Of a stretch of 23,882 bases of DNA, positions 483 through 23,882 are shown piece by piece (position 1 is the stretch's first letter; the number at the start of each line of letters is the position of its first letter). The translations under genes and the position numbers were made by a program. Source of the stretch: a virus; the IMG/VR virus record IMGVR_UViG_3300006753_000075, positions 1 to 23,882 of that record; one strand, 5' to 3'. Below the pieces are notes generated by a model that saw nothing but the letters and a program-made list of their open reading frames with translations, had not been told where the DNA came from and did no database searches.

Positions 483-519
483 ATCCCCTTATCTCACTCC
501 TTCATATTTGATTAGATTA

Positions 520-1011
520 CTATATCCCCATTACCTTATCATAACCATCCTTATCAATCCAAGTATGACCACCATTCCACATTTCAGCTAACTTCGTTAC
601 ACTTTCTTTCTTGATGCCATAGTAATCATAAACTTGTTGCTTATCCATTGGTACTAAATCACCACTAATCAACTCTCTACAGAACATCTGTACTATGCTA
701 TATATCGCCTTTAGTCCTTCCTTTGGCGGTACTTCCCATATACGATTGGCTATCTCTTGCTTGCCAGAACCTTTACTACGTTTCTTCTGTGCCATCTTTG
801 GTAATGTTGTCGAAGGTAGATACTGACCACCTTTATAATGCTCACCATTCATTCCAATTTCACCACCAACCTTAGCTCTAGTCTTCTCAGCTTCTTTTCT
901 CTCAGCTATTTCTATCATCTTAGCATCAACACAAGGAATACATACTGGAAAGTTTTCAGAAGATAGTGGTTCTATATTATCTGTGTTTGCTTTACATATT
1001 ATACAAGTCAT
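520..1011 (-). CDS. Unknown protein with paired CxxC motifs, 163 aa
   Basis: The gene starts at ATG 1011 behind AAGGGGG spaced six bases, a convincing leftward ribosome site. The N-terminus has CIIC at residues 3-6 and CIPC near residues 24-27, spaced like a four-cysteine zinc site. Residues about 45-85 are polar and lysine-rich. The C-terminal half (QQVYDYYGIKKESV, then W-rich GGHTWIDKDGY) looks globular and could hold a small helix-turn-helix. The zinc site is inferred from cysteine spacing only. No family is recognised. It belongs to the leftward early-type cluster and is separated from the next gene upstream by a GGGGC/GCCCC hairpin. Confidence 0.75.
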   Translation of the reverse strand: MTCIICKANTDNIEPLSSENFPVCIPCVDAKMIEIAERKEAEKTRAKVGGEIGMNGEHYKGGQYLPSTTLPKMAQKKRSKGSGKQEIANRIWEVPPKEGLKAIYSIVQMFCRELISGDLVPMDKQQVYDYYGIKKESVTKLAEMWNGGHTWIDKDGYDKVMGI

Positions 1012-1032
1012 TGAATTCCCCCTTATATAAGT

Positions 1033-1046
1033 GGGGCCGTAGCCCC
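1033..1046. terminator. Short GC hairpin between two leftward genes
   Basis: The sequence ggggc-cgta-gcccc forms a compact five-pair stem with a four-base loop in the gap between the genes at 520-1011 and 1060-1407. There is no T run, so it is more likely an mRNA-processing or stability hairpin, or a weak terminator. Such short G/C hairpins are common between phage genes. Confidence 0.4.
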
Positions 1047-1059
1047 GGTGGTGTGTTGT

Positions 1060-1407
1060 CTATTCTAGGACACAAAGCGAATCGAGTTTCAAGCCCTTAG
1101 TCGCCCATGTTCCTGCTTCATCTATCCAGAAATAAACCAAGCCACGCTCAACATTTACTGATACTATCGGGAACATCCCCCCTGCCTTTGTCGCTTGACT
1201 GGCATAACGAAAGAGGTTGCATTTTTTTTTCGGGGTGAAAAAATCATCATCTGACTTAAAAAGGTAAAAGCTAATATCCTTTGTGTTAGCAGTACCATAA
1301 AAAGTTTCGCCTGTATCTCTGTGGAGATATTCGCTATAGTCGGCCGAATGTTTTACTAGCTGATAGGGAATATCGCATTTGGTTGATTTGATTGGTAGAT
1401 AAGTCAT
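1060..1407 (-). CDS. Unknown protein, 115 aa
   Basis: The open frame reaches back to a GTG at 1437, but the better start is ATG 1407 (MTYLPIKSTK), which has GGAG seven bases upstream. The product is a small, mixed alpha/beta-looking soluble protein with aromatic patches (DISFYLFKSDDDFF, GLVYFWIDEAGTW). No signal peptide or membrane segment is visible. The gene lies 30 bases after the stop of the next leftward gene (1438-1743), with which it is probably co-transcribed from the promoter at 1796-1824. No family is recognised. Confidence 0.7.
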   Translation of the reverse strand: MTYLPIKSTKCDIPYQLVKHSADYSEYLHRDTGETFYGTANTKDISFYLFKSDDDFFTPKKKCNLFRYASQATKAGGMFPIVSVNVERGLVYFWIDEAGTWATKGLKLDSLCVLE

Positions 1408-1437
1408 GTTGTTTCTCCAAGAAGTTTGATATTTCAC

Positions 1438-1743
1438 CTAGGCCATATAATTAAAAAAAGCCTCTGTTTGACTAATATACGATTCTTTTATAACTATTTC
1501 TGCGTCTTCCTCTTCCAACCAAGAGCAAAATTGATCTAGGGCTACATAATCACGCCCTGCTTTCTCACCATAAAACTCAAACATGATTGGGCTATCTTGT
1601 CTGATGTATCCTGCATTATCATCAGCCCATTTTATTAAATCTTGTTTCGTAATATTATTTTTAGTATATCCTGTAACGGTAACAGTATTTTTATAACGCG
1701 TATCCTGAATACTTGTTAGTTCCATTTTAATGTTTATCTTCAT
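1438..1743 (-). CDS. Unknown acidic protein, 101 aa
   Basis: Starts at ATG 1743 with AAGGGG seven bases upstream. It is the first gene after the leftward promoter at 1796-1824. The protein opens with a strand-like MKINIKMELTSIQD segment, then KQDLIKWADDNAGYI, and has an acidic patch WLEEEDAEIV near residue 77. The pattern suggests a small alpha/beta fold of the kind seen among phage proteins made early in infection, some of which inhibit host enzymes. That role is a guess from position, size and acidity only. Confidence 0.7.
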   Translation of the reverse strand: MKINIKMELTSIQDTRYKNTVTVTGYTKNNITKQDLIKWADDNAGYIRQDSPIMFEFYGEKAGRDYVALDQFCSWLEEEDAEIVIKESYISQTEAFFNYMA

Positions 1744-1795
1744 TTTATTTCCCCTTAAAAAGTGTTAAGTAACTTGTGTTTCCTTCTCTATCTAT

Positions 1796-1824
1796 AGTAT
1801 ACAAGATTATACAGTAAATGTCAA
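1796..1824 (-). promoter_or_regulatory. Leftward sigma-70-type promoter
   Basis: On the minus strand TTGACA (1824-1819) and TATACT (1801-1796) are separated by exactly 17 bases. Transcription would start about 35-45 bases before the ATG of the gene 1438-1743. The same -10 hexamer and similar -35 boxes recur at 2432-2460 and 7892-7921, so these three look like one promoter class. Confidence 0.75.
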
Positions 1825-1897
1825 GGCTTTATATGGGAAAAAATAGGCTTTATGGAAAAAAACTTGATTTTTCTTGACATAAAAAAGGCTTGATAAT

Positions 1898-1969
1898 CCA
1901 AACCTTACCAAGCCATGCCGTACCAAACCTTACCAAACATTACCAAGCCACGCCGTACCTCACCGCACC
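1898..1969. repeat. Phased CCNNN pentamer repeat, 15 units
   Basis: Starting at 1898, CC occurs at every fifth base (1898, 1903, 1908 and so on to 1968); 14 of 15 positions are CC and one (1938) is CA. On the leftward transcript this reads GGNNN repeated. Within it a 19-base unit (taccaagccatgccgtacc) at 1906-1924 recurs at 1941-1959 with one change. It overlaps the last codons and stop of the small regulator gene 1960-2136 and lies upstream of the leftward promoter at 1796-1824. Confidence 0.8.
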
Positions 1970-2136
1970 TCTTTCGTATCTACCTCTTTCTTAACTAAAG
2001 CATCTCTTAACTGTCCAAGAGTTATATTTTTCGTAGCAGCCAAGACTTTAGCTGTATGAATCGTTGAAGGCAAAACGAATACTCCCCAACGAATACGATC
2101 CTCACCACTACTACTATTTCTCGCTTCATCTTTCAT
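1960..2136 (-). CDS. Small ribbon-helix-helix-like DNA-binding protein, 58 aa
   Basis: A leftward frame starts at ATG 2136, overlapping the end of the frame before it (ATG/TGA within ATGAAAGATGA). AAAGGAG lies about 10 bases upstream. After a polar start (residues 1-14) the product shows one strand (WGVFVLP, 17-23), a first helix (STIHTAKVLAATKN, 24-37) and a second helix (TLGQLRDALVKKE, 39-51). This is the layout of ribbon-helix-helix repressors and antitoxins, which bind DNA as dimers through the strand. No toxin partner is obvious. It may bind the palindromes of the nearby 73-bp element or the pentamer repeat. The fold is inferred from pattern, not from a database hit. Confidence 0.6.
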   Translation of the reverse strand: MKDEARNSSSGEDRIRWGVFVLPSTIHTAKVLAATKNITLGQLRDALVKKEVDTKEVR

Positions 2137-2344
2137 GTTCCATCACGCTCCTTTGTATGTTTAGTATTTTAACACATCCTGATGCTTGTATCTTCTTAAA
2201 CTGAGGAAGAGCCTTAGTTTTTACTGTCTGTAAAGCTTTTGCTTGCGATTTTTTAAGTTTATGATCTATCGCCACTTCTTTTACATCATTATCCATGTTG
2301 AGATAAGGCTTGAGATCATGCACAATAAACGATTGCCATTTCAC
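2126..2344 (-). CDS. Possible small winged-helix-like protein, start uncertain
   Basis: The open frame continues back through the 73-bp element but, with transcription from the promoter at 2432-2460, the first ordinary start codon in frame is GTG 2344 (VKWQSFIVHDLKPYL). No ribosome site is visible there, so a rarer start further upstream (around IKVEAAFLSLP) is possible. The 72-residue product is polar with ALQTVKTKALPQFKKIQASGC followed by a strand-like VKILNI, resembling a helix then wing. The gene lies directly downstream of the promoter/palindrome element and its end overlaps the start of the 58-aa regulator. Either a regulator or a decayed frame. Confidence 0.4.
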   Translation of the reverse strand: MKWQSFIVHDLKPYLNMDNDVKEVAIDHKLKKSQAKALQTVKTKALPQFKKIQASGCVKILNIQRSVMEHER

Positions 2345-2371
2345 TGTTCGTGGTAAAGATAAAAATGCAGC

Positions 2372-2444
2372 TTCAACTTTTATAACAAATTTGTTATAAA
2401 TATCATCTCGAGATGCTATATGTATATTTACAGTATACACAATA
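2372..2444. repeat. 73-bp exact repeat, copy 1, with nested palindromes
   Basis: Identical to 7832-7904. It contains a perfect 22-base palindrome (2379-2400, TTTATAACAA core), a 12-base palindrome catctcgagatg (2404-2415), and TGTATA/TATACA half sites around the -10 box of a leftward promoter. The layout (promoter -10, then two palindromes downstream of the start point) is that of an operator-controlled promoter. Confidence 0.9.
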
Positions 2445-2460
2445 ATACTAGAAATGTAAA
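2432..2460 (-). promoter_or_regulatory. Leftward promoter at repeat copy 1
   Basis: Minus-strand TTTACA (2460-2455) and TATACT (2437-2432) are 17 bases apart. The -10 box is inside the 73-bp repeat and the -35 box is outside it. It would drive the leftward genes 2126-2344 and 1960-2136. The two palindromes lie just downstream of the predicted start point, suggesting repression. Confidence 0.65.
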
Positions 2461-2504
2461 GGCAATATTTAATATATTCTGCAAGACGTTGCAGATGTTG
2501 AGGG

Positions 2505-2576
2505 ATGATCACACACGCTGTTCCTGTGATCATTCCTTTTTTTATGGCCATAGGAACAGCAGTTATGAGGAACAGC
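2505..2576 (+). promoter_or_regulatory. Competing hairpins before the replication ATPase start
   Basis: Hairpin 1 pairs atgatcaca (2505-2513) with tgtgatcat (2525-2533) and is followed by seven T (2537-2543), like a small terminator. The segment gctgttcct (2517-2525) can instead pair with aggaacagc at 2552-2560, or with a second identical aggaacagc at 2568-2576. The latter contains the AGGA ribosome site and ends directly at ATG 2577. The layout is that of an attenuator or translation switch. Whether the transcript begins upstream is not known. Confidence 0.45.
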
Positions 2577-4136
2577 ATGTCAGGTAATGAATCAGTACCA
2601 ATAGAGCAAAGGAAAGCAGCAGAAGCTCATTTACGAGACTATATAGCGACTGAGATAGGGTCTGAAGGCGAGCGAGTATGTCTTGATGCTTTAATGGGTG
2701 TGGTGTTCGATATACAGTCATTTGGGGCGCGCCAGCAATGGCGAGAAAAACTGTCTAAGCTTCCAGATGGTAAAGCAATACCTAAAGGACGTTTTGATTC
2801 TGAAGATAAACGTTTACAGATGATTGTTAAAGCTGGACTGAAAGAAGAGGAAAAACCTCAAGAGGAAGGGCCAACAATCAAAGCAATTCCATTTAAGTTA
2901 TTCGACAATGGAGTTATCATTGATCAAGTATTACAAGGTGGCAAGGTGAGATTCGCAGTTCTTACACAAGAGGATGGAGAGGTCACATACTTGGATCAGA
3001 TTCCAGATGAAGAAGGCGAAGTATTATATGTACCAGTCGAAAATGAGTTATGTCTTAAAGGTGATCCACCAGCAGTGCGACTACCTTCTAAAGCAGAGGA
3101 ATATAAAAGCCTTGCTGATTTATTAGCTGAGATTCGCACATTTATTAAGTACTATCTGGAAGTAGACGAGCTAAACCTCAAGTTGGGGTCTTATTATATT
3201 CTGCTATCATGGGTGTATGATAAGTTTCACAATTTGCCATATCTTAGAGCATTGGGTGATACTGGTACAGGAAAGAGTAGATTTCTGGATACTATTGGAT
3301 CATTAACCTATAAGCCATGCTTCGTCGCTGGCGCTGTTACACCAGCAGTAATATATCGAGTCATAGAGCTTTATGGTGGAAGTCTCATTATAGATGAGGC
3401 TGACTTTCGATCCAGCGATATTCATGATGAAATTGTTAAGATTCTGAACTGTGGGTTTCAACGTAGTTCGCCAGTAATCAGATCACAACCTACAGCTGAT
3501 GGATCATGGGAACCAGCGCCATTCTCTGTATTTTGTCCTAAGATATTAGCTACACGAAGGAAGTTTAAGGACGATGCTCTTGAGAATCGCATGTTTACTG
3601 TAGTTATGCGAGAGTGTGTGCGATCTGACATACCATACACATTGGATGATAACTTCTATGAATGGGCGCGGTCAATCCAGAATAAGCTTCTAATGTTCAG
3701 ATTGAGAAATTTGGCGAAGGTTAAAGCTCTCACAGATATGGAACTGAATGTGGATGCCAGACTTAAACAGATTACTATTCCAATGCTATCAATCATGGAA
3801 GAGGAAGATTTCAAGCAAGACCTAATGGATATTATCGAGACATATCAATCTGAGATTTTCGTAGATAGGTCTACCAGATGGGAAGCTGAAATTATCGCGG
3901 CCATACTTAAACTACATGATCAGAAGTCGACACAACAATTTACTATGAAAGAAATCGCTGAAGTAGTCAACGAAGAGCGAGAAACTGATGATAAGTTATC
4001 AGCGCGTAAGGTTGGATCAGTTGTTCGTAGAAGCCTATATCTAAAGGTATCTAAGCTTCGTAATGTTTATGGAATAGTGTGGGAGAATAACGAGAAGACC
4101 ATACTTGAATTAGCTAAAAGATACGATATTTTATAA
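2577..4136 (+). CDS. Phage replication-type P-loop ATPase, 519 aa
   Basis: Start chosen at ATG 2577 (MSGNES), five bases after GAGGA; an open frame extends further back without a better site. Walker A GDTGTGKS is at residues 227-234 and Walker B LIIDEAD around 270-276 (D273, E274). A later ILATRRKF and ALENRMF segment fits the sensor/arginine-finger region of AAA+ or superfamily 3-like ATPases found in phage and mobile-element primase-helicase proteins. The last 90 residues (EIIAAILKLHD, MKEIAEVVNEE) look like a winged helix for DNA binding. No primase catalytic motif is seen in the N-terminal 200 residues. The GTCGAC array begins one base after its stop codon, which supports a role in replication initiation. 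The helicase activity is inferred. Confidence 0.8.
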   Translation: MSGNESVPIEQRKAAEAHLRDYIATEIGSEGERVCLDALMGVVFDIQSFGARQQWREKLSKLPDGKAIPKGRFDSEDKRLQMIVKAGLKEEEKPQEEGPTIKAIPFKLFDNGVIIDQVLQGGKVRFAVLTQEDGEVTYLDQIPDEEGEVLYVPVENELCLKGDPPAVRLPSKAEEYKSLADLLAEIRTFIKYYLEVDELNLKLGSYYILLSWVYDKFHNLPYLRALGDTGTGKSRFLDTIGSLTYKPCFVAGAVTPAVIYRVIELYGGSLIIDEADFRSSDIHDEIVKILNCGFQRSSPVIRSQPTADGSWEPAPFSVFCPKILATRRKFKDDALENRMFTVVMRECVRSDIPYTLDDNFYEWARSIQNKLLMFRLRNLAKVKALTDMELNVDARLKQITIPMLSIMEEEDFKQDLMDIIETYQSEIFVDRSTRWEAEIIAAILKLHDQKSTQQFTMKEIAEVVNEERETDDKLSARKVGSVVRRSLYLKVSKLRNVYGIVWENNEKTILELAKRYDIL

Positions 4137-8133: not shown

Positions 8134-9858
8134 ATGCCATTCGTCAATGAGCATAGTCTTAGATTGCGTTCACCCACCATTTTTGACGAAAGTAGCTTTA
8201 GACGAACTAGAGGCGGCACGCTATTCGGCGGCAACCTTCAAGTACCTAATAGTATTAGTCTAATTTTGGCGAAGTTAAAAGACTGTGCTGACTCTGATGA
8301 TCCAGTGATCGCACAAACCTTCCAATTTGACAAGTCAAAATGGACAATAGATGCTGCGAAATCTTGGGTCACCAAAAACATCAAGCGCGACATATTTGAA
8401 CCAGCCTCTTCTAACAATACTGAAAAACCTATTACTGACAAAGACCTTGTTGAGAGTATAATACAGGGCAATCTTGAAGACTATAATGCTGGTGAAGAAA
8501 TTAGCTATGTAGATATTGAATCAATGAAGTCTACCATAGAATTCTCAGAGACAGAGGAATTTGACGCTACCTCAATACTTGCTGCACAATTACATCAACT
8601 AAACGCGGAGGAATCGAATACAGACACGACTAGCACAGCTAGTGAAAGCCTCGCAGAAGAAGATAAAACTGATGAGGCTGAGATACAAAACCTAGAAGGT
8701 ATTGAAATCTTTGCAACTGGCACATTTAGAGGCGTTCCTTATACGACAAAAGACCTGGATGAAATTGTCGCGAATTTTATGAAGTTGCGTGGTCAGATTA
8801 AGCCACCAATTAAGCTAGGTCATGATGAAGGACAGCCATTACTCAAGATTGAGGGTTTACCAGCAGGCGGGTGGATCACGAAGTTGAGCAGGATAGGCGA
8901 TAAGTTAGTGGCTGATATTGTAGATGTGCCAAATAAGATAGCCAGGATTGTTAAGAATCGTGGTTATAAACGTATTTCGTCAGAGATATACACCAATTTA
9001 GAACACAATGGCGAGCGACATGGTAAAGTATTGAAAGCTATAGCCTTTTTAGGAGGCGACATTCCAGAGGTCAAATCACTGGATGATATGGTGGCTCAGT
9101 ATGATGATAAGCTTGCTAATAATGAATTTAGGAGCGTGATATTCATGGCTGACGATGCCAAGAAAGAAGTCGTCGAAGAAAAAACTACCGAGGAAGAGGA
9201 AGCTACAGAAGAAAAAACTGAGGAAAAAGCCACTGAGGAAGAATCTACTGAGGAAGAAGAAGAAAAAGAAGTAGAGGAAGCCGAAGAAGAAAAGGAGAAA
9301 GAGGAAGTAGTGGAAGATACTAAGCCTGATAATTCAGAAATGGAAGCTAAGTTGACAGAACAGGCTAAGATGATTAAGCAGTTGACTGAGAAGGACGCTG
9401 TTAGAGATCAGGTTATTGCTAATCTACAGGCAAACGCTAAGGCTGAAAAAGATAAAAAGAACCATTTGCTTGACGAGACTTTCCTAACTGAATTGACTAA
9501 GGCTGGTAAATTCCCACCATCACAACATTCAAAGGCATTAGCTTTGTTGACTGAGTTGCGTACTGATGAAGAAAAGGTCGTAACTTACACCGAGGATGAT
9601 ACTGAAATTAAGGTCAGTCCTTTTGAGCTTGTCAAAAAGCTGTTTACAGAGTGGCCGCAAGGTATAAGTTTCGCGGAAACTGCCAAAGGTTCTGAGATAA
9701 TTGATCCAGGCAGCGGCAAAACGATTGAAGTGAATAAAGATGGTGTGCCTATTTATGGGGCTGATATAGCTGAAAAAATTACTAAATACATGGAAGAACA
9801 TGAGGGCGTTGATTATGGCGAAGCTTATGCTATAGTTGACAAACAAATAAAATCATAA
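8134..9858 (+). CDS. Prohead protease fused to scaffold protein, 574 aa
   Basis: Starts at ATG 8134 after AAAGGGAG. It would cut scaffold and capsid precursors during head maturation. Residues about 45-80 (DKSKWTIDAAKSWV) resemble the N-terminal part of XkdF-like phage serine proteases. The protease core spans about 190-325: GIEIFATGTFRG, then IKLGHDE with likely catalytic H230, and YKRISSEIY with S282/S283 as likely nucleophile, ending AIAFLGGDIPEV. From about 340 the chain is extremely acidic (EEEEATEEK type), then coiled coil (residues ~405-445), then a C-terminal helical part, as in scaffold domains. This matches the protease-scaffold fusion plan of Mu/lambda-type phages. An internal start at 9145 probably makes the scaffold alone. 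The catalytic assignment is by motif and unproven. Confidence 0.8.
   Translation: MPFVNEHSLRLRSPTIFDESSFRRTRGGTLFGGNLQVPNSISLILAKLKDCADSDDPVIAQTFQFDKSKWTIDAAKSWVTKNIKRDIFEPASSNNTEKPITDKDLVESIIQGNLEDYNAGEEISYVDIESMKSTIEFSETEEFDATSILAAQLHQLNAEESNTDTTSTASESLAEEDKTDEAEIQNLEGIEIFATGTFRGVPYTTKDLDEIVANFMKLRGQIKPPIKLGHDEGQPLLKIEGLPAGGWITKLSRIGDKLVADIVDVPNKIARIVKNRGYKRISSEIYTNLEHNGERHGKVLKAIAFLGGDIPEVKSLDDMVAQYDDKLANNEFRSVIFMADDAKKEVVEEKTTEEEEATEEKTEEKATEEESTEEEEEKEVEEAEEEKEKEEVVEDTKPDNSEMEAKLTEQAKMIKQLTEKDAVRDQVIANLQANAKAEKDKKNHLLDETFLTELTKAGKFPPSQHSKALALLTELRTDEEKVVTYTEDDTEIKVSPFELVKKLFTEWPQGISFAETAKGSEIIDPGSGKTIEVNKDGVPIYGADIAEKITKYMEEHEGVDYGEAYAIVDKQIKS
9145..9858 (+). CDS. Probable nested scaffold protein, 237 aa
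   Basis: Inside the protease gene and in the same frame, ATG 9145 (MADDAKKE) has AGGAG ten bases upstream and sits exactly between the protease core and the acidic scaffold part. In lambda (C/Nu3) and Mu the scaffold is made from such an internal start in the protease gene. The product would be the acidic, coiled-coil and C-terminal region only. Support is the ribosome site, the domain boundary and precedent. Confidence 0.5.
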   Translation: MADDAKKEVVEEKTTEEEEATEEKTEEKATEEESTEEEEEKEVEEAEEEKEKEEVVEDTKPDNSEMEAKLTEQAKMIKQLTEKDAVRDQVIANLQANAKAEKDKKNHLLDETFLTELTKAGKFPPSQHSKALALLTELRTDEEKVVTYTEDDTEIKVSPFELVKKLFTEWPQGISFAETAKGSEIIDPGSGKTIEVNKDGVPIYGADIAEKITKYMEEHEGVDYGEAYAIVDKQIKS

Positions 9859-9876: not shown

Positions 9877-10320
9877 ATGGCAGGCCCACAGACGATACTT
9901 CCTGTAAGTTATGAAGCTGGTGAAGACCTATCATCTAGTCAGTATCGTGCGATAGTTGTAGGAGCTAGTCAAGGTTTGATAGCTTTACCTAGTGGGGCAA
10001 ACGCTTCACGGTTCCAGGGTATTCTTCAAGATCGACCAGTCGCAGGCGAGTCTGGCGAAGTAATGAAGTTGGGTATTTCACGCGCTATTGCTGTAGGTAC
10101 TATTGCAAATGGCGATCCTTTGGAAATTGGCGACGCTGCTGGTGGTGTAAAGTCTTTAACGTCTGGCGTTGGTTCGTATCTTGGAACTGCTGAGAAAGAT
10201 GCTATTGATGGTGAAGAATTCTTGATGTTTATCTGTCCTGTAGAACTTGCAGGAACAGGTATTACATATTCAAGTTCGTCTTCGTCTAGCTCTAGCTCGT
10301 CCAGTTCCAGTTCACAATAA
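9877..10320 (+). CDS. Capsid decoration/cement protein A with poly-Ser tail, 147 aa
   Basis: Starts at ATG 9877 behind AGGAGGTG, one of the strongest ribosome sites in the window, fitting a highly made protein. Residues 1-127 (MAGPQTILPVSYEAGEDLSS, ARAIAVGTIANGDPLEIG-like core) match the plan of small DUF2190-type capsid cement proteins: beta-rich, glycine-rich, located between scaffold and major capsid genes. The C-terminus is 15 serines followed by Gln. A paralogue follows directly. It should bind the outside of the head and stabilise it. The family call rests on sequence pattern and gene order. Confidence 0.75.
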   Translation: MAGPQTILPVSYEAGEDLSSSQYRAIVVGASQGLIALPSGANASRFQGILQDRPVAGESGEVMKLGISRAIAVGTIANGDPLEIGDAAGGVKSLTSGVGSYLGTAEKDAIDGEEFLMFICPVELAGTGITYSSSSSSSSSSSSSSSQ

Positions 10321-10337
10321 AGGGGTAGGTGATAAGT

Positions 10338-10844
10338 ATGCCAGGCCCACGAGACATTTTAACAGTCACTTACTCTGCTGAGGAAGACCTATCCAGCAGT
10401 CAATATAGAGCAGTCGTACATGGTAGTACTGATGGGAGTGTCGCTTTACCGGCAGGAACTAGTGCTGGTCGCTGTCTAGGTATCTTACAGAATAAGCCCC
10501 CAAGTGGTGGCTGCGCTTCTGTGAGAAAGTATGGTCAATCTAATGCTATAGCAGTAGGAGCTATTTCGGCTGGCGACGCTTTAGAGATAGCCAACGCTAC
10601 TGGTGGTGTACGAACAGCACAAGCTATTGTCGGGACGTATTTAGGAACAGCCGAGGAAGATGCTGCTGATGGTGATGAGTTCAGGATGTTCATTAGATTA
10701 TTTGAGGTTCTAGCATCGACGCTAACTTGGTCGAGTTCGTCCTCATCTAGTTCTAGTTCGTCTAGTTCTTCGTCTTCGAGTTCTAGTTCTTCGTCTTCGA
10801 GTTCCAGTTCGTCTAGTTCGTCCAGTTCAAGTTCGTCAGACTAG
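10338..10844 (+). CDS. Capsid decoration/cement protein B with longer poly-Ser tail, 168 aa
   Basis: ATG 10338 (MPGPRDILTV) follows AGGTGATAAGT; the frame also reaches a GTG nine bases earlier. It is a clear paralogue of the protein before it: shared MxGPxxIL, EEDLSSSQYRAxV, AIAVGxIxxGDxLEI and GTYLGTAEEDAxDGDEF. The tail is 36 serines from residue 132, ended by Asp. Two decoration proteins in tandem could occupy different capsid sites or form mixed assemblies. The much longer tail is the main difference. Confidence 0.75.
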   Translation: MPGPRDILTVTYSAEEDLSSSQYRAVVHGSTDGSVALPAGTSAGRCLGILQNKPPSGGCASVRKYGQSNAIAVGAISAGDALEIANATGGVRTAQAIVGTYLGTAEEDAADGDEFRMFIRLFEVLASTLTWSSSSSSSSSSSSSSSSSSSSSSSSSSSSSSSSSSSSD

Positions 10845-10878: not shown

Positions 10879-11796
10879 ATGCCAGCAAATCTAACCATAA
10901 GCTCGGTGCATATAAATAAGCCACTGACTAATCTTGCAAGAGGTTATACGCCGCCTGGGTTCATAGCAGAGCGGGTATTCCCTGTTGTAACTGTTGAAAA
11001 AGAGGCTGATTCATATTTTCAGTTTGGTAAAGAAGAATTGCAAGCTGATGAAGAGAATACGCTTCGCGCTGATGGAGCGTTGGCGTCTGAGTTTAGTTGG
11101 GATGTGACCAATACGTCTTACCTTGCTCACGAGTACGCCAAACGTCAGTTGATTACTGATAGAATTGTAAATAACGCTGACCCGCAGGTACAGCCTAGTA
11201 TTAACACCACAAAAAAGCTCAAGAGTTTGTTAATGCTAGGTCAGGAAAAGCGAGTACAGGCCATAGCGCAGAGCGCGGCTGTATTTACAAACACTGCTGT
11301 GCCTGCTATAAAATGGGATCAGTCTACTGCGACTATTCAGGCAGACGTGAACACGGCGAAAGAGCAAGTCCTGTTGAATGCAGGAACTATGCCTAATTCG
11401 TGGCTGATGAACTTCCAAACGGCTAACGATATTATGCTGTGGTTGAAGAATCAAGCACAGACTACGTTCTCAGAGTGGTTGAGCAAGAATATGTTGCCGC
11501 CCATTTTGTGGGGCTTGGAAACTATCATTGGCGAAGCTGTTGAGAATACTGCCAATCCAGAGGCAGCAGAAGCGTTGGCTTATGTATGGACAGATAACTC
11601 ACTTATCTTCCACAAACAGCCTACTCCTACTTTGCAAGATAGGTCGGCTGGTTATATCCTGAGAGCGCAGGATTGGGAAGTAAAGACCTATCGCGAAGAA
11701 GCGCGTAAGGGTAATTGGCATGAATGCTCAGTGATTGAAGATGAAGTCACTATTGATGCCAGTTCTGGGTATTTGTGGACTGATGTTCTAACGTAG
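10879..11796 (+). CDS. Major capsid protein, 305 aa
   Basis: Starts at ATG 10879 after GGAAGGTGAT. The N-terminal half (residues ~22-50: YTPPGFIAERVFPVVTVEK, ADSYFQFGKEEL) and the order scaffold, decoration, this gene, connector are typical of HK97-fold major capsid proteins in Mu-like and related phages. A middle helix-rich part (KKLKSLLMLGQEKRVQAIAQ) resembles the spine helix, and the end (RAQDWEVKTYREEARKGN) is strand-rich as in the P domain. It has no poly-Ser tail, unlike its neighbours. It forms the capsid shell. The gene ends just before a perfect 10-bp hairpin. Confidence 0.85.
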   Translation: MPANLTISSVHINKPLTNLARGYTPPGFIAERVFPVVTVEKEADSYFQFGKEELQADEENTLRADGALASEFSWDVTNTSYLAHEYAKRQLITDRIVNNADPQVQPSINTTKKLKSLLMLGQEKRVQAIAQSAAVFTNTAVPAIKWDQSTATIQADVNTAKEQVLLNAGTMPNSWLMNFQTANDIMLWLKNQAQTTFSEWLSKNMLPPILWGLETIIGEAVENTANPEAAEALAYVWTDNSLIFHKQPTPTLQDRSAGYILRAQDWEVKTYREEARKGNWHECSVIEDEVTIDASSGYLWTDVLT

Positions 11797-11841: not shown

Positions 11842-11856
11842 TAATCGGGTAATTTG

Positions 11857-12309
11857 ATGCCATATACTACAGTTGCAGAAGTCAGACTAAATCATGAATT
11901 GATCAACACAAATGCTAATTCAGATTCAATAATCTCTATGCACATCCCTGGGGTTGATGATTTGATAAATGGTATGATAAGGAGTAAGGTCACTATTCCA
12001 TTCGTGGGTGAAGCTCCTGAACTCATTAAAGGTATTAGTCGTGATTTAGTTACATTCAGAACACTGCGCAGTCTTTATAGCGCACAAGTAGAACAATACC
12101 AAACGTGGCTTGACCAATACAAGGTTGAGCAGATGGAAGTACTTGAAGCGATTAGAGATTGTACTATAATCTTAGACCCTGATTTAGCTACTGCTTTAGC
12201 GAGAATAGCTAGTAACACCAAAGGCAAGGAGGCTATCTTTAACCTATCTGATGAAGAAGGCCAGAACTTTCACCCAACTGATGGCGATCAACGCTATGGA
12301 GAGATATGA
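11857..12309 (+). CDS. Head-tail connector protein, 150 aa
   Basis: ATG 11857 is preferred to the TTG just before it, although the ribosome site (CGGGTAA) is weak. The protein begins MPYTTVAEVRLN and has the all-helical look of DUF1320/gp6-type head-completion proteins: VDDLINGMIRSKVTIPF, then LVTFRTLRSLYSAQV and DQYKVEQMEVLEAI. Proteins of this type form the ring between portal and tail. Its position directly after the major capsid gene agrees. It ends in an ATGA overlap with the next gene. Family assignment is by pattern and position. Confidence 0.65.
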   Translation: MPYTTVAEVRLNHELINTNANSDSIISMHIPGVDDLINGMIRSKVTIPFVGEAPELIKGISRDLVTFRTLRSLYSAQVEQYQTWLDQYKVEQMEVLEAIRDCTIILDPDLATALARIASNTKGKEAIFNLSDEEGQNFHPTDGDQRYGEI

Positions 12310-13259
12310 AATTAGCGATCTTTTGTATTGGTGGGCTAAATAAGGCTATATTATCTAAGCTGAGAGTAGAGGCTTTGGACAATATAGCCTATCACGATAT
12401 TGAGTCCACAATACCTAGCGAACCCTTAACGTCATGGACGACAGCATGGACAGGTATTGGCCCAGCGGTGCATGGTAAGGTTGCTGGTATCAAAGGTCGT
12501 AAGCCAGCACTAAACACCATCTGGGACGATTTCATCAGGAATGGTCAGAAGGTCATAGTTTACGATGAAGGTGAATGGGCTAAAGAAGACGATACTGATA
12601 TTGGGGTTTATAATTTAGATTCTGTTTCTGATTCTGTGATCAATGGCGATATAGCTCAAGCTCAGGAAACGCTCAACTCTGCCACAGAAATGATTAAGAG
12701 CGTTAGCGATATACCTTATTTAATCATTTCCGCGTATGGTACTGCTAAATATAGTACAAGCTTGAATGTAGATAAGTTTCTAATTGGTAAGTCAATGATC
12801 AAGAGGAATGCGCGCGGAATGGAGTATGAAGAAACAATCGCCTATCCTGCCAATTATATAGGCAAGAAGCCGCGCACGACTTATGGGATCGTATTGAATT
12901 CCAATAAGCGTATAAAAGGCTTTATGGAAGATCGTCACGTAATGAATGTGGCTGGCAATTTAATGATGATACTGAATAACGTTCAAGGTATTGACGCTAA
13001 ACCAGCACATCTACAGTATGACATTACTGGCAGTTACTTTGACGATATGCCTGATATAGTATTAAGTAGCCCTAGCAATCTGACGTGTTTTCGCGTGATG
13101 GGTGAAGTTAAGGCGGCGGCCTTGTCGCCCTGTTATGATTATGGTTTGTCGGCAATGGGTATGATTGCTTCTAATGAGCCTGATGTAATCTCAGGTATCA
13201 ATACAGTGATGGATATTCGCAAGGCGATTAAACGAGCAAACGATAAGGCGAAAGATTGA
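12306..13259 (+). CDS. AlkP-superfamily-like protein, apparently inactive, 317 aa
   Basis: Starts at ATG 12306, overlapping the preceding stop (ATGA). The first 90 residues follow the type I phosphodiesterase/alkaline phosphatase superfamily: MKLAIFCIGGLN at the first strand, STIPSEPLTSWTTAWTG with AVHGKVAGI, then NTIWDDFIRNGQKVIVYDEG. Around residue 140-160, LIISAYGTAKYSTSLNVDKFL matches the position of the usual SDHG motif. The first metal-binding Asp (IDG) reads IGG, and SDHG reads SAYG, so three expected metal ligands are absent. Near the end PCYDYGLSAMGMIASNEPD resembles the usual GTHxxxGxxIAxGP with His lost. The fold is inferred from motif memory, and the loss of activity from the replaced residues. 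Genes of this kind are unexpected between connector and tail genes. Confidence 0.55.
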   Translation: MKLAIFCIGGLNKAILSKLRVEALDNIAYHDIESTIPSEPLTSWTTAWTGIGPAVHGKVAGIKGRKPALNTIWDDFIRNGQKVIVYDEGEWAKEDDTDIGVYNLDSVSDSVINGDIAQAQETLNSATEMIKSVSDIPYLIISAYGTAKYSTSLNVDKFLIGKSMIKRNARGMEYEETIAYPANYIGKKPRTTYGIVLNSNKRIKGFMEDRHVMNVAGNLMMILNNVQGIDAKPAHLQYDITGSYFDDMPDIVLSSPSNLTCFRVMGEVKAAALSPCYDYGLSAMGMIASNEPDVISGINTVMDIRKAIKRANDKAKD

Positions 13260-13777
13260 TGAATAAGAGCGCATTCATGGGGCGTAATGGTACATTACAT
13301 ACGATGCCTGATAAAGGAATATTGAATATCTTTAATTGTCGTCGTTTAGATGATGCTATTCCAGCCCTGAATCTATTAGGAGCAGATGGGTATTTGCTCT
13401 CAGTAATCGTTAATGAGAAAGGCTCGCAGGAAGACAGCAGTGATTATCACAATACAGTCGGGCAAATAGAAAACTGGATCAGGAATGATGTATATAGCCC
13501 CATCTTTTTTCGTTACTGCTATCACCACCACGCTAAGAAATGCGATTGTAGATTACCTAAAACTGGCTTGATTGACGCCTTACAAAAAGAACATGATATA
13601 GACTTATCTGAAAGTATTATGTTTGCCACGTCTCAACAAGAAGTCGAGGCCGCTGAGGTTGCTAATATTGGTAATATAATTAGGATCAATACTGGTAAAG
13701 CAGATTGGGCAGATGACGAGTTACCGCTTTACGAAACTTTACTAGATGCAGTAAGGGAACTTACGCTAAATGGCTAA
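13259..13777 (+). CDS. HAD/GmhB-like protein, apparently inactive, 172 aa
   Basis: Starts at ATG 13259, overlapping the stop of the AlkP-like gene (TGATG). The layout follows the histidinol-phosphatase/heptose-bisphosphate phosphatase (GmhB) branch of HAD: FMGRNGTLH near residue 7 (usual FLDRDGTL), AIPALNLLGADGYLLSVIVNEKG (usual VTNQSG), YCYHHHAKKCDCRLPKTG (usual zinc loop CxHxxxCxCRKPxPG), and SIMFATSQQEVEAA (usual MVGDxxxD). The zinc-loop Cys/His residues are kept, but both Asp of DxD and the GD of the last motif are replaced. So the fold is probably intact and phosphatase activity absent. A structural or ligand-binding role is possible. Start, overlap and order suggest coupled translation with its neighbour. 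Confidence 0.6.
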   Translation: MNKSAFMGRNGTLHTMPDKGILNIFNCRRLDDAIPALNLLGADGYLLSVIVNEKGSQEDSSDYHNTVGQIENWIRNDVYSPIFFRYCYHHHAKKCDCRLPKTGLIDALQKEHDIDLSESIMFATSQQEVEAAEVANIGNIIRINTGKADWADDELPLYETLLDAVRELTLNG

Positions 13778-14312
13778 ATCAGGTATATCATTCAGCGTTG
13801 AGATAAAGAGCGACGATCTGAAACGTCTCTTGAAAGAGATGGAGATTCGTGGTAAGAATCTATCGCCATTATTCAAGAAATTTGCCATAATTATGACGCG
13901 CTCCTTTGCTGATAACTTTCGCCAAGAAGGACGACCTACAAAGTGGAAAGCTCTATCTAAGAATACTGTAGCAGGTAGGCGTAAAGGTAGTAGTCGTATA
14001 TTACAGGATAAAGGTTTTTTGCGTCAATCTGTTTTAGCCAGATCAGGGTCGGGGAACATCAGGAAGTTTACCAAAGATTCGCTTACGATGGGAACGCGCA
14101 ATAAGGTTGCGCCTTTTCATCAATTTGGCACTAAGCCATTCGTGATAGTTCCTAGAAGTAAAAAAGTTTTAAGTTTCATGACAGCATCAGGGCGCGTATT
14201 TACCAAAAAGGTTAATCATCCTGGGTTAGTAGCCAGACCATTCGTAATGATTCAACAAGAAGATGAAGACGCAATGGCGAAAGCGACTCTAGGCCATATG
14301 GTTGAGGAATAA
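13770..14312 (+). CDS. Phage virion morphogenesis (Mu gpG-like) protein, 180 aa
   Basis: Starts at ATG 13770, overlapping the previous gene by eight bases. It has the standard plan of the family: an N-terminal helix (LKRLLKEMEIRGKNLSPLF), FADNFRQEGRPTKWKALSKNT, a basic RILQDKGFLRQSV segment, then MGTRNKVAPFHQFGTKPF and ARPFVMI. These are well-known marks of tail completion/virion morphogenesis proteins, needed for joining or finishing tails. Length of about 180 aa is usual. It has no poly-Ser tail. The next gene starts at its last base. Confidence 0.85.
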   Translation: MAKSGISFSVEIKSDDLKRLLKEMEIRGKNLSPLFKKFAIIMTRSFADNFRQEGRPTKWKALSKNTVAGRRKGSSRILQDKGFLRQSVLARSGSGNIRKFTKDSLTMGTRNKVAPFHQFGTKPFVIVPRSKKVLSFMTASGRVFTKKVNHPGLVARPFVMIQQEDEDAMAKATLGHMVEE

Positions 14313-14866
14313 TGGCGTTACCATTTGAATTATTAGATCAAATTGAATCAGTTTTTGAAGCTGAAAATGTTCCAACAGGCTTATTGCCTGGGATAAACTT
14401 TATTGGACAAGGTGGAACATTGCCACCTTTGCCTGTTGATGAATTTCCAGCGATTCTTATAGACATAGATCGCTCACGCCACCCTATGATGCGCGCCGCT
14501 CTTGGAAAGTCAGAAGCCTTTGATGAGATATACTTTATTGGCATTACAGTAGCTTCGTATATTGTTAAAACTGATGCTGGTATTGGTGGCGTCAAGGCTG
14601 CGATGAGAGAGGCAGTTGGCTTGTGGAAGACTATCTTAACTATTTGTCAACGAGAAACTAGGGAAAATAAGTGGAATAATTTAGTCTATGATGCTGGTGT
14701 TAATCGTGATGAAGATGTTGAATATGGCGATATTTTTCCATTAGATGGGACATTTCCTATAGCTTACGCTGTAAGAGGAGTAATGGAATGTAAATCAGTG
14801 AGTAAGACGAGTAGCTCGTCTAGCTCAAGCAGTTCTTCTTCGAGTTCTTCTAGCTCGTCAACTTAA
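14312..14866 (+). CDS. Tail terminator-like protein with poly-Ser tail, 184 aa
   Basis: Starts at ATG 14312, overlapping the preceding stop (TAATG). The N-terminus (FELLDQIESVFEAENVP) and central strands (EIYFIGITVASYIV, KAAMREAVGLWKTILTI) resemble tail terminator/minor tail proteins that cap the tail and face the head. Its place between gpG-like and tail tube genes supports this. From residue 167 the chain is 17 serines followed by Thr. Residues before the tract (MECKSVSKT) look like an ordinary C-terminus, so the tract reads as an added tail. Confidence 0.65.
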   Translation: MALPFELLDQIESVFEAENVPTGLLPGINFIGQGGTLPPLPVDEFPAILIDIDRSRHPMMRAALGKSEAFDEIYFIGITVASYIVKTDAGIGGVKAAMREAVGLWKTILTICQRETRENKWNNLVYDAGVNRDEDVEYGDIFPLDGTFPIAYAVRGVMECKSVSKTSSSSSSSSSSSSSSSSST

Positions 14867-14884: not shown

Positions 14885-15922
14885 ATGGGAATGCAGTGGA
14901 ACGCTATTTTAGGGCTTGCCGAGGAACAAGTTTGGGGTGATGGTGTTAATACTCCAATATCACTTATTGGTGTTTTATCAGGAGATCAAGTCGTTGAGGC
15001 AATAGTACCGGACGATACTAGAGCGACTAAGTTACGTGCGCCTAGAACTGCGCCTTTAACTGGATTAAATTATGCTTTTAACTGGCAACAATGGGTTAAT
15101 CGAGAGGTAATTGGATCAGCATTAAAGTTTCTGTATGGCGCAGTGAATACTACTGGTGGTGGGCCTTTTACGCATACTTATGCTCATGCTACAACGCCAT
15201 TAGGCTTGCCTGGATTTACCCTATTCGTAGATAGAGGTATTGATGGTTCTAACCCAACTGATGCTCTAGCTGGTTGTATCATGAATCAGATGACGTTAGA
15301 AAATAGCGCGGCTGATGTGTTAATGGCTACGTTTGAAGGTGTTGGACGTAATCGTTCTCAAGAAGCTGCTATTGCTATTTCCGCAGCACAATGTACTGAA
15401 TTAGGACTTGATCCATTTATCTTTTCTGAATTGACGTTTAAGCAAGGACTGAATGGGGCGGCTTTGGCTACAGATACTACGATTGAGAATTTATCAATAG
15501 TGATTACCAATAATATCGTAGCTGATAAACGCACCGCTGATCAGTCTTTATACATCCAGCGACCACAAGCAGGTATGATTGAAGTAACTGGTACGTTTGA
15601 TGTAGAGCAGGAAGATTATACCAGATTTGACGCCTTTGAAGCTAATCAACAGGTCGATATTGAAGCAACTTGGAGCGATGGTACTTATTCGTTATTGATT
15701 CGAGTTCCTAACGCTAGATTCACAGCACACCCATTATCGCCTATCGGCGGCAATAGTGATAGAGGTATTATAACTGTAGAATTTAGAGGGATTTATGACT
15801 GCGCTGATTCAGAAATAACTCACGCCGTTTTAGTGAATGATGATGCAGCAGTGCCTAGTTCGACTAGTTCTAGTTCTTCGTCATCCAGTTCTTCATCTTC
15901 AAGCTCTTCTAGCTCAACGTAA
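14885..15922 (+). CDS. Tail tube protein A with poly-Ser tail, 345 aa
   Basis: Starts at ATG 14885, preceded by AGAGG. It opens MGMQWNAILGLAEEQVWG, then AFNWQQWVNRE, FTHTYAHATT, FTLFVDRGID, GCIMNQMTLENSA and EGVGRNRS; this succession of strands ending with a second repeat (FIFSELTFKQGLNG, GMIEVTGTFDVEQEDY) is the plan of long-tailed phage tail tube proteins. The chain ends with PSST, 17 serines and Thr. It is expected to stack as hexamer rings around the tape measure protein, with the C-terminus facing outward. A paralogue follows. Confidence 0.8.
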   Translation: MGMQWNAILGLAEEQVWGDGVNTPISLIGVLSGDQVVEAIVPDDTRATKLRAPRTAPLTGLNYAFNWQQWVNREVIGSALKFLYGAVNTTGGGPFTHTYAHATTPLGLPGFTLFVDRGIDGSNPTDALAGCIMNQMTLENSAADVLMATFEGVGRNRSQEAAIAISAAQCTELGLDPFIFSELTFKQGLNGAALATDTTIENLSIVITNNIVADKRTADQSLYIQRPQAGMIEVTGTFDVEQEDYTRFDAFEANQQVDIEATWSDGTYSLLIRVPNARFTAHPLSPIGGNSDRGIITVEFRGIYDCADSEITHAVLVNDDAAVPSSTSSSSSSSSSSSSSSSSST

Positions 15923-15934
15923 TATGGAAACAAA

Positions 15935-17191
15935 ATGGAATGGCAAGGATTACTTGCTTTATCGCAAACGCAAACATGGGGAGATTTCAGCGACACGCCG
16001 CAACGCAAGATTGCTGTAGAGCGTGCTAGGATACGTATACCAAAAGATACAGGTAGATATGGAAGGGCGACTGATTCCAGACAGTTCCATAGAAGCATAT
16101 TGGAAGGGCTGGACGTTGCCTTTGAATGGGTACAATGGGTAAACTACAAAAACTTAGTTGAAGTATTGCTATTCGCCTTTGGAAACGATATTACAACCGG
16201 GTCAAATCCTTTCGCTCATTCCTATTCGACTGAGAATGCGCCGAATAGCTTACCAAACTTTTCTCTGTTTTTAGATCAAGACATAGACACCAGTCCTACA
16301 AAAAACATTAGTGGATGCAAGATAGATGAACTGCGATTGGAAAATGATAGCAGTAATATTCTAAAAGCAACTATCAATGGCGTTGGTCGAAGCCACCGCG
16401 ATATTGCAGCTTTAACAGTCAGTATAGACGACTGTGATCAGTTCGCATTATCGCCATTTATCTTTAGCGACTTAGCATTTACATTAGGCTTGAATGGCGC
16501 AGCTAGAAGCGCAGAAACAGGTATTGAGTCTTTACGAATTCGCTTACGAAACAACTTAATTAAAAGAATTCCTTCGTCAACTTCTAATTTCGTAATAGAG
16601 CCAAGCGAAGGCATGGTTGATGTAAGCGGGTCGTTCAGAATGGAAGTGGAAGACTGGACTGAGTTTGACGCTTTCATAGCCAACGAACAAGTTGATATAT
16701 CGACAACGTGGACTTCTGGGGTTTATTCTTTAACAATTACAATACAGAATGCTAGATTTGCAGTAGTTCCAGTTCCAGAAGCAAGGGGCAGTTCAGGACG
16801 TGGTGTTGTTGAGATACGTTTTGAAGGACTTAACGATGGTAGTGATACAATTACAGCGACTTTGGTTACAGACGAAGCAGGGGTTGTGCTGGCTAGTTCT
16901 TCTAGCTCAAGTCAATCCTCTTCGAGTTCCAGTTCGTCGTCATCAAGCTCTTCCTCGAATTCTTCGAGTTCTAGTTCGTCGTCGTCTTCGAGTTCGAGTT
17001 CGTCTAGTTCTAATTCTTCGAGTTCTAGTTCGTCGTCGTCTTCGAGTTCGAGTTCGAGTTCTAGTTCGTCCTCGTCGAATTCGTCATGTAGCAGCAGTTC
17101 CAGTTCGAGTTCGTCGTCAGCGAGTAGTAGTAGTTCTTCGTCAAGTTCGTCGTCCAGTTCTTCGTCGAGTTCGTCAACAAGCATAACTTAA
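15935..17191 (+). CDS. Tail tube protein B with ~90-residue poly-Ser tail, 418 aa
   Basis: Starts at ATG 15935 (MEWQGLLALSQTQTWG), after GGAAAC. It is a clear paralogue of tail tube A: FEWVQWVNYK, FAHSYSTENAP, FSLFLDQDID, GCKIDELRLEND, INGVGRSHRDI, FIFSDLAFTLGLNG, GMVDVSGSF. After residue 325 comes about 90 residues of serine broken only by single Q, N, C, A and T, ending TSIT. This is the longest tract in the window and holds an exact 45-bp duplication (16958-17002 and 17012-17056). It may be a second tube component or a tube variant at one end of the tail. Confidence 0.75.
   Translation: MEWQGLLALSQTQTWGDFSDTPQRKIAVERARIRIPKDTGRYGRATDSRQFHRSILEGLDVAFEWVQWVNYKNLVEVLLFAFGNDITTGSNPFAHSYSTENAPNSLPNFSLFLDQDIDTSPTKNISGCKIDELRLENDSSNILKATINGVGRSHRDIAALTVSIDDCDQFALSPFIFSDLAFTLGLNGAARSAETGIESLRIRLRNNLIKRIPSSTSNFVIEPSEGMVDVSGSFRMEVEDWTEFDAFIANEQVDISTTWTSGVYSLTITIQNARFAVVPVPEARGSSGRGVVEIRFEGLNDGSDTITATLVTDEAGVVLASSSSSSQSSSSSSSSSSSSSSNSSSSSSSSSSSSSSSSSNSSSSSSSSSSSSSSSSSSSSSNSSCSSSSSSSSSSASSSSSSSSSSSSSSSSSSTSIT
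16958..17056 (+). repeat. 45-bp direct duplication in poly-Ser tract
   Basis: The 45 bases beginning aattcttcgagttct at 16958-17002 recur exactly at 17012-17056, 54 bases (18 codons) later. It shows recent expansion of the tract by duplication, in frame. Confidence 0.85.
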
Positions 17192-21791: not shown

Positions 21792-22172
21792 ATGGCTAAT
21801 CCACAATTCACAGATCAAAATGGAAATTTCCCCTACATCTGGCAAGAACTACCCATTATACCTAGTGATCGTCCAGATGTAGCTACGCCTACAAATACAG
21901 ATAGAACTATACTAGACTTCAAACATGCAGGTATGACTATTGGTACAATGTTCTTAACTAAGCGCGGTAAATGGTCTATTCGTTTCAGGTCAATCACAGA
22001 AGCCATGACTATTTCACTACAGTTTTTTTTCAATAAGGGATTCATACGCTTCCACCCTGATTCAGATAGCGCGACATATAAAGAAGTATATATCAGTAAC
22101 CAATTTAATCCAACGTGGCAGCCTGGGGGTCGTTACGATCTGACGCTAGAATTGAGACAATATAGTCCATGA
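21792..22172 (+). CDS. Distal tail-like protein A, 126 aa
   Basis: ATG 21792 (MANPQFTDQNGN) is chosen over an earlier in-frame start at 21780 because AGGTGAT lies about eight bases before it. The protein shares a plan with the C-terminal domain of the next gene: F-D-NGN, LPxxPSDRPD, a central K/R-T-K-R-G-x-W segment, a helix SITEAMTISLQ, and a final strand (RYDLTLELRQY). Both lie right after the tape measure gene, where the distal tail and tail tip proteins are encoded. It ends in an ATGA overlap with the next gene. It lacks poly-Ser, unlike its paralogue. Confidence 0.6.
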   Translation: MANPQFTDQNGNFPYIWQELPIIPSDRPDVATPTNTDRTILDFKHAGMTIGTMFLTKRGKWSIRFRSITEAMTISLQFFFNKGFIRFHPDSDSATYKEVYISNQFNPTWQPGGRYDLTLELRQYSP

Positions 22173-22855
22173 TTATTTCAGCATTAGAGATTATCACGAC
22201 AGCACAATTAGCCTTTAGCACGAGTTCGAGTTCCAGCACAAACAGCGCATCTAGTAGTAGTTCTTGTAGTTCGTTGTCGTCAAGCGGCAGCACATCTCCC
22301 TCATCTTCGTCATCCAGTTCTTCGCAATCTAGCTCTAGTTCTACTTCGTCATGTTCATCATCATCTTCCAGTTCTTCTCAATCCAGTTGTAGTTCTTCAC
22401 AATCAGCTAGTTCACAATCAGGCACTTCGTTTCCTAAGTTCGCTGATTCAAATGGTAACACTGTATATTTCTTCGAGGTATTACCTTCACCAAACAGCGA
22501 TAGACCTGATTTGACATTTGAAGTTCCACAAGAGAATATTACGATAGAGCATAGACGTAATGGTGTATTAGCTGATCGTGAAGTTATAAAGACGCGTGGT
22601 GTTTGGAATCTGATCTGGCATGGATTGACAGAAGCGCAAATGCAGAGCTTGCAAGTATATACAGAGTTAGATGAATTTCGCTTTTATCCAAATGGTTTAT
22701 TGCAAGTATTTAGGCGTGTGTTTTGTCCTAGTAATGGTTGGCGTACAGTAGTTGAACGCGGCGGAACTTATACAGTAAATATGCTGTTAAGAGAACGTGA
22801 TATTACGCAAAGTAGCTCTAGTTCGAGTAGTTCTAGTTCATCATCGAGTGATTGA
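22169..22855 (+). CDS. Distal tail-like protein B with two poly-Ser tracts, 228 aa
   Basis: Starts at ATG 22169, overlapping the previous stop. A short N-terminus ([17 protein letters not shown]) leads into about 70 residues of serine broken by T, N, Q, C, L, G and P, then a globular domain from about residue 88 ([54 protein letters not shown]), and a tail of 13 serines and Asp. The globular domain is a paralogue of the protein before it. Here the serine tract is a linker at the front as well as a tail. It may join two tail-tip layers or hold a fibre. Confidence 0.65.
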
Positions 22856-22857
22856 AA

Positions 22858-23882
22858 ATGGCACAAACAATAGATATAGCCTTATACAAAACCAACGCCT
22901 TCCTAGATAGTTATTCGCAGTCTGGCTCAATGGATGATCCTATCTTTCCCAAGTCTAGCATAACGTGGGATGGTGAAGCTGGGCAAGTTAGAGACATACA
23001 GCTATTCGCACAGAACGATGGAAACGTTGATGGTTTTGGTGTTATCGTTGAAGTTGTAGAGATAGATGGTACTGATGAAACAACTTGGTCGAAATTAGCC
23101 TCGACGCAAGCTGGCTTATCTGGTGCTATAGTTGGTGGCTCATTAGCTATAGGCGATTTAGCAGTTGGGGCTAGTACGAATTTCTGGCTACGCGTTCAAG
23201 TACCAGTTGGGGCTAGTTCTGAGAATAAGACTGATTTAAGGGTGAGAGCGGCGGCTTCGTGGTCTTCTTCGAGTTCGTCTTTAAGTTCATCACAATCGAG
23301 TCAAAGTTCCAGTAGTGGTTCACAAAGCTCTTCTAGTTCTAGCTCAAGTTCCAGTTCCGGTTCGTCTTCTTCCAGTTCATCTTCTTCTAGTTCTAGTTCG
23401 AGTAGTAGTCAGAGTTTACTAGCAGGGCCAACAGGGCCACAAGGCCCAACAGGCCCGCAGGGGCCAACAGGCCCGTCGGGAGGCCCAACAGGGCCATCCG
23501 GAGGAGCAACAGGGCCACAAGGCCCAACAGGCCCGCAGGGGCCAACTGGTTCGACAGGTGCGACAGGAACATTGGGCGTGACCGGTACTTTAGGTGTAAC
23601 CGGCTCGACAGGTGCTCAGGGAGCAACAGGTTCGACTGGCGCGCAGGGAGCAACAGGCTCGACTGGTGATCAGGGAGCAACAGGTTCGACTGGTGATCAG
23701 GGAGCAACAGGTTCGACTGGTGATCAGGGTGCCGTTGGCAATCAGGGTGCGACTGGTTCAACGGGTGCTCAGGGGGCAACTGGCTCGACTGGTGCTCAGG
23801 GGGCAACTGGCTCGACTGGTGATCAGGGTGCCGTTGGCAATCAGGGTGCGACTGGTTCAACGGGTGCTCAGGGGCCAACTGG
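22858..23882 (+). CDS. Collagen-like tail fibre protein, partial (342 aa seen)
   Basis: The gene starts at ATG 22858, two bases after the preceding stop, and is open to the right edge. A globular N-terminal domain of about 135 residues ([52 protein letters not shown]) probably anchors it to the tail. Residues about 136-187 are poly-Ser with Q, G and L interruptions. From residue 190 the chain is collagen-like G-X-Y ([30 protein letters not shown]) to the window end. Collagen-like shafts form thin trimeric fibres on several phages. The host-binding tip is outside the window. Confidence 0.8.
23425..23882 (+). repeat. Collagen G-X-Y repeat region
   Basis: Continuous glycine-every-third-codon sequence, in which GPT/GPQ triplets give way to GST, GAQ, GAT and GDQ. 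Near-exact DNA blocks recur, for example the segment starting tcgactggtgatcagggt at 23713 and again at 23812, 99 bases (33 codons) later. Confidence 0.85.

Follow-up and report, generated by a model that had tools for sequence, protein, structure and literature searches.

A coupled pair of predicted phosphatase-fold pseudoenzymes among the neck genes of a long-tailed phage

Main finding

The virus contig IMGVR_UViG_3300006753_000075 (23,882 bases, analysed over its whole length and called here the window) carries a head-tail module in its right part, in which two adjacent genes encode proteins that appear to descend from two unrelated phosphatase superfamilies and to have lost the residues of catalysis while keeping much of the surrounding framework. 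The explanation that fits best, to which we give somewhat less than even confidence, is that both are exapted, catalytically dead phosphatase-fold proteins that serve as protein-binding modules in neck or head-completion assembly.

Gene order and overlapping frames

The genes of the module are the following:

8134-9858, head-maturation protease
9877-10320 and 10329-10844, two related small head proteins, between the protease and the major capsid protein
10879-11796, plus strand, major capsid protein (phrog_1005, 1.6e-48)
11854-12309, plus strand, Mu gp36-like protein of 151 aa in the head-tail adaptor position, following the capsid gene (PF07030, 6.1e-7)
12306-13259, plus strand, AlkP-superfamily-like predicted pseudoenzyme of 317 aa (hhalign of both halves, HMM, residue map)
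13259-13777, plus strand, HAD-IIIA GmhB/HisB-N-like predicted pseudoenzyme of 172 aa from the ATG (NCBIfam, PDB, AF2, Foldseek, alignments)
13770-14312, plus strand, Mu gpG-like or Neck1 (Ne1) protein of 180 aa (PF05069, 8e-13; phrog_26, 6.2e-20)
14312-14866, plus strand, protein with a C-terminal Ser tract in the tail-terminator (Tc1/gp37) position, assigned by position only and matching no family in Pfam or PHROGs
14885-15922 and 15935-17191, two tail-tube proteins (Phage_tube_2), followed by the tape measure

The placement of the pair between a head-tail connector and a Mu gpG-like gene, proposed in a preliminary description made from the sequence alone, is thus borne out by the family matches on either side, and so is the coupling of the two genes by overlapping stop and start codons. 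In particular, the stop codon of the gp36-like gene and the ATG of the AlkP-like gene share the bases ATGA (12306-12309), the AlkP-like stop TGA (13257-13259) and the HAD-like ATG (13259-13261) form TGATG, and the HAD-like stop (13775-13777) lies beyond the gpG ATG at 13770, with an overlap of 8 bases. ATG 13259 is the likelier HAD-like start; the alternative TTG 13256 gives 173 aa. Open reading frames of such length are not expected by chance at 41% GC (P about 2e-9 for the AlkP-like gene and about 2e-5 for the HAD-like gene), and the base composition (GC 0.42/0.40) fits that of the neighbouring genes, so that it gives no sign of recent insertion. Neither terminase nor portal was detected on the contig, which is incomplete.

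Other features of the window concern the virion-type proteins in general. Tracts of about 15-40 Ser, mostly C-terminal, occur in at least seven of them (9877-10320, 10329-10844, 14312-14866, 14885-15922, 15935-17191, 22169-22855 and 22852-23882) and are absent from the capsid, adaptor, AlkP-like, HAD-like, Neck1 and tape-measure proteins; TCN and AGY codons are mixed in the tracts, which points to selection at the protein level, and they could be glycosylation or surface features. Two tandem duplications are present, one of the paired small head proteins (9877-10844, 76-77% DNA identity in blocks) and one of the paired tail-tube proteins (14885-17191). The frame at 22852-23882, which runs off the contig end, continues after its Ser tract with collagen-like G-x-T/G-x-P repeats and probably encodes a fibre protein. 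Further upstream, 2505-4136 encodes a 543-aa protein with a Walker-type GDTGTGKS motif, whose only matches are distant (Pseudomonas phage Phipami28 and Virus Rctr41k from a DAMO/AAA enrichment culture).

The HAD-like protein

The preliminary description had proposed two unrelated phosphatase ancestries, and the support for the HAD one is strong. The protein matches NF006506 (PRK08942/GmhB) at 1.8e-19 and HisB-N at 8e-10 in NCBIfam, both far below the equivalog cut-offs, and phmmer against the PDB retrieves E. coli GmhB (3l8e, 7.9e-10) and HisB (1.6e-6); sequence similarity by itself is already enough to place it as a GmhB/HisB-N-type HAD. GmhB is the D-glycero-D-manno-heptose-1,7-bisphosphate 7-phosphatase. 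The fold prediction agrees with this assignment, as the AF2 model (pLDDT 88, pTM 0.86) has E. coli GmhB 3l8e as its top Foldseek match (E 6.4e-12, TM 0.79), in a model whose fold is partly inherited from the canonical GmhB rows held in the input alignment. The protein shares fold, length and motif order with GmhB and HisB-N at 24-30% identity, together with the zinc knuckle C-x-H...C-x-C with a short HisB-like loop; it differs from them in that its gene lies outside any heptose or histidine pathway operon.

The catalytic residues were followed in alignments with GmhB, HisB-N and 15 viral GmhB relatives, with residues numbered from ATG 13259. The DxD of motif I is lost, FLDRDGT having become FMGRNGT (nucleophile D8G, acid/base D10N); the Thr of motif II is replaced in V51-N-E for TNQ (T51V), the Lys of motif III in C-R-L99-P for CRKP (K99L), and the Mg2+-binding acids of motif IV, GDxxxD, in A123-T124...E128 (D124T, D128E). 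Among the columns that are at least 90% conserved in the 15 viral GmhBs, the protein keeps 13/16 of the other positions and 0/5 of the catalytic ones (Fisher p 0.003); at the sixth catalytic position, D124, the viral relatives have D or N and this protein has T. In contrast to these losses, the predicted zinc ligands C87, H89, C95 and C97, invariant in the 15 relatives, are intact. With none of its catalytic residues present, the protein is predicted to have lost catalysis completely.

The AlkP-like protein

The second ancestry is moderately supported by statistics obtained with home-made profiles at modest E-values. Searches of Pfam, PHROGs, NCBIfam, PDB sequences and phages with the AlkP-like protein gave nothing usable, PF01663 itself included; weak matches to phrog_17968 (0.014) and TIGR-Tas (0.17) were treated as chance. 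Profiles were therefore built from bacterial-genome proteins collected via PF01663 and from a COG3379-like group. With small HMMs of this kind the AlkP-like protein scored 7.5 bits against 0.9 for the best shuffle, and 5.3 against 4.1 in a second test, outscoring all controls (500 to 3000 shuffles and other contig proteins). A home-made profile alignment in local mode with a gap cost of 6 gave 34.2, against 32.0 for 1000 shuffles and 28.2 for 401 other-frame fragments, and at other gap settings 0-5 of the 401 fragments reached the AlkP-like score.

The hhalign comparison with profile A1 gave E 2.8e-4 for the whole protein, against 0.18-0.65 for two control contig proteins (probability 0.1-0.3%). 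The N half (E 1.6e-5, probability 79%) and the C half (E 0.003, probability 10%) matched independently and in family order, with 0/150 shuffles as high in either case. The S-x-x-G segment test taken alone is weak, since 7-27 of 2000 shuffles reach the pooled-profile score and the subgroup profiles are not significant, and the AlkP claim consequently rests on the combined evidence.

The N-terminal core shared with PF01663/COG3379-type proteins is colinear (W-T-x-x-x-T-G-x-x-P-x-x-H-G, then IW...G.kv.V), and the shared C-terminal core comprises S-x-x-G plus N/DxxL, TxAY and PD[IL], with SAYG aligned on SDHG and EYEETIAYP on DWSRTxAYx. The positions kept are W44, G50, P53, G57, W73, V85, S142, G145, L159, T191, P249 and D250. 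In contrast, the first-strand family Asp corresponds to G9, the Thr/Ser nucleophile to P40 at an ungapped position, SDHG to S142-A143-Y144-G145 and the last metal-ligand His to P275; the whole cap, which bears another Asp and His ligand, is absent, the family members having 460-700 aa and this protein 317 aa. The contrast in retention (20/34 versus 0/4, p 0.04) is inflated, as the alignment had been optimised. On this residue map the protein has neither the nucleophile nor any of the predicted metal ligands, and no cap. The loss of catalytic residues with retention of fold motifs, originally suggested for both proteins, is thus upheld strongly by the HAD alignments and moderately by the AlkP map.

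Relatives and related cassettes

No close relative of either protein was found in IMG/VR and phages, nor did plasmids, genome contigs or about 980 bacterial genomes yield one for the AlkP-like protein, the genome searches being run without a positive control. Similarly, no homologous AlkP-HAD pair turned up in the collections searched, no phage-encoded member of the PF01663/COG3379 type was found, DNA scans of viral and genome contigs for the WT..TG..P..HG motif returned only out-of-frame or unrelated matches, and a scan with the tail-tube protein had no match. Three GmhB matches in the phage collection (H1-H3) were set aside as bacterial DNA with complete motifs. In 11 bacterial genomes no AlkP gene shared a contig with a GmhB-type gene above the cut-off, and no ancestral operon was found.

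Catalytically complete viral GmhBs sit in ADP-heptose cassettes (kinase, isomerase, adenylyltransferase, GmhB) or in sugar-nucleotide clusters, and among the inspected ones there is none in a neck module. In six IMG/VR phage contigs (L081, L082, L083, L085, L089, L097) the ADP-heptose pathway is carried as separate small genes for heptose-7-P kinase, GmhA, heptose-1-P adenylyltransferase and GmhB, with families checked for L081 and L089 and the rest assigned by eye. Phage pseudoenzymes are familiar, as are exapted enzyme folds; the open-access literature searched contained no description of two unrelated, catalytically dead phosphatase folds coupled within a neck operon.

The neck slot

The usual order of the type 1 neck is Ad1-Hc1-Ne1-Tc1, and 28% of type 1 necks have no Hc1 detectable at high stringency (PMC4362835). 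In CRP-6 and RHph_Y52, phages with related capsids, a phrog_161 Hc1 occupies the slot between adaptor and Neck1 that is filled here by the AlkP-HAD pair. Hc1 (SPP1 gp16; phrog_161) is small and beta-rich (PMC4362835), whereas the pair consists of a 317-aa and a 172-aa protein of probable alpha/beta enzyme ancestry, with the same genome slot and no sequence similarity. No phrog_161 match was obtained for either protein or for the other scanned ORFs of this incomplete contig, Hc1 being very divergent. That the two form an obligate hetero-complex that takes over the Hc1 step, two enzyme folds thereby replacing a virion gatekeeper, is a speculative extension that we consider most unlikely.

Interpretation

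On this explanation the late structural operon of a long-tailed phage would have taken in two enzymes, a GmhB-type HAD phosphatase and an AlkP-superfamily phosphohydrolase without a cap. Both would have become catalytically dead protein-binding modules, and the kept zinc knuckle would hold the HAD fold together. The four overlapping frames (adaptor, AlkP-like, HAD-like and Neck1) are probably translated together, so that the pair would be made alongside the neck proteins and would most likely help to assemble the neck or complete the head, either as virion components or as assembly chaperones. A kept framework, vanished catalysis and tight coupling to neck genes fit the pattern of recruitment as protein-binding parts. 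We infer in this way the absence of enzymatic activity, the virion presence, the partners and the assembly role of both proteins.

Phage operons also carry non-structural cargo, and the pair may instead be late-expressed, host-directed pseudoenzymes (decoys, sponges or inhibitors) that merely ride in the structural operon and act, for instance, by binding an enzyme partner from the host, a signalling nucleotide or a sugar phosphate. This is a rather unlikely alternative with some points in its favour: both folds derive from enzymes whose ligands are small phosphorylated molecules, non-structural genes are generally known among phage late genes, and complete GmhBs are present in phages with ADP-heptose cassettes. 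However, the phosphate- and metal-binding residues are precisely those lost in both proteins, which makes binding or sequestration of a phosphate ligand at the ancestral sites less likely, and the tight coupling suggests a dose matched to that of the neck proteins. Accordingly, among the three roles first put forward for the pair, structural reuse in the neck fits best, and the binding of a nucleotide or sugar-phosphate and the sequestering of a host signal molecule are disfavoured. It is improbable, in turn, that the AlkP resemblance arose by chance or extends to no more than a single motif, with 12306-13259 an unrelated phage protein and the HAD-like one the sole pseudoenzyme. The lack of database matches, a strict local match limited to residues 28-85 and an AF2 pLDDT of 29 in modelling without homologues speak for it; the independent C-terminal match in the correct order, and scores exceeding those of all shuffles and tested contig proteins in the HMM and profile comparisons, with the very low hhalign probabilities of the controls, speak against it.

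Decay of formerly useful cargo without present function is decidedly improbable. It would account for the missing catalytic residues, the lack of conserved relatives and the identity of about 25% to canonical members, but the frames are intact and tightly overlapped with neck genes, and free decay would not prefer catalytic residues over the non-catalytic invariants that the HAD-like protein selectively keeps. It is very improbable, finally, that one or both proteins still catalyse a reaction through residues that have moved or been substituted. Unusual chemistries are generally known in both superfamilies, and T42, two residues past the lost AlkP nucleophile position, leaves a small doubt; nevertheless, the AlkP-like protein is devoid of all metal ligands and of the cap that carries two of them, and HAD motifs I-IV contain no alternative Asp pair or lysine, so that the shifted catalytic residues named at the outset as evidence against a pseudoenzyme pair were not found there.

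The pair is also a warning about automatic annotation, as homology alone would name the HAD-like gene a heptose phosphatase and count it as phage metabolism. Should both proteins belong to the virion or to its assembly machinery, a single phage would have turned two phosphatase folds of separate origin into components of its neck; this would be a clear example of enzymes exapted during virion evolution, and the pair might stand in for a core neck protein.
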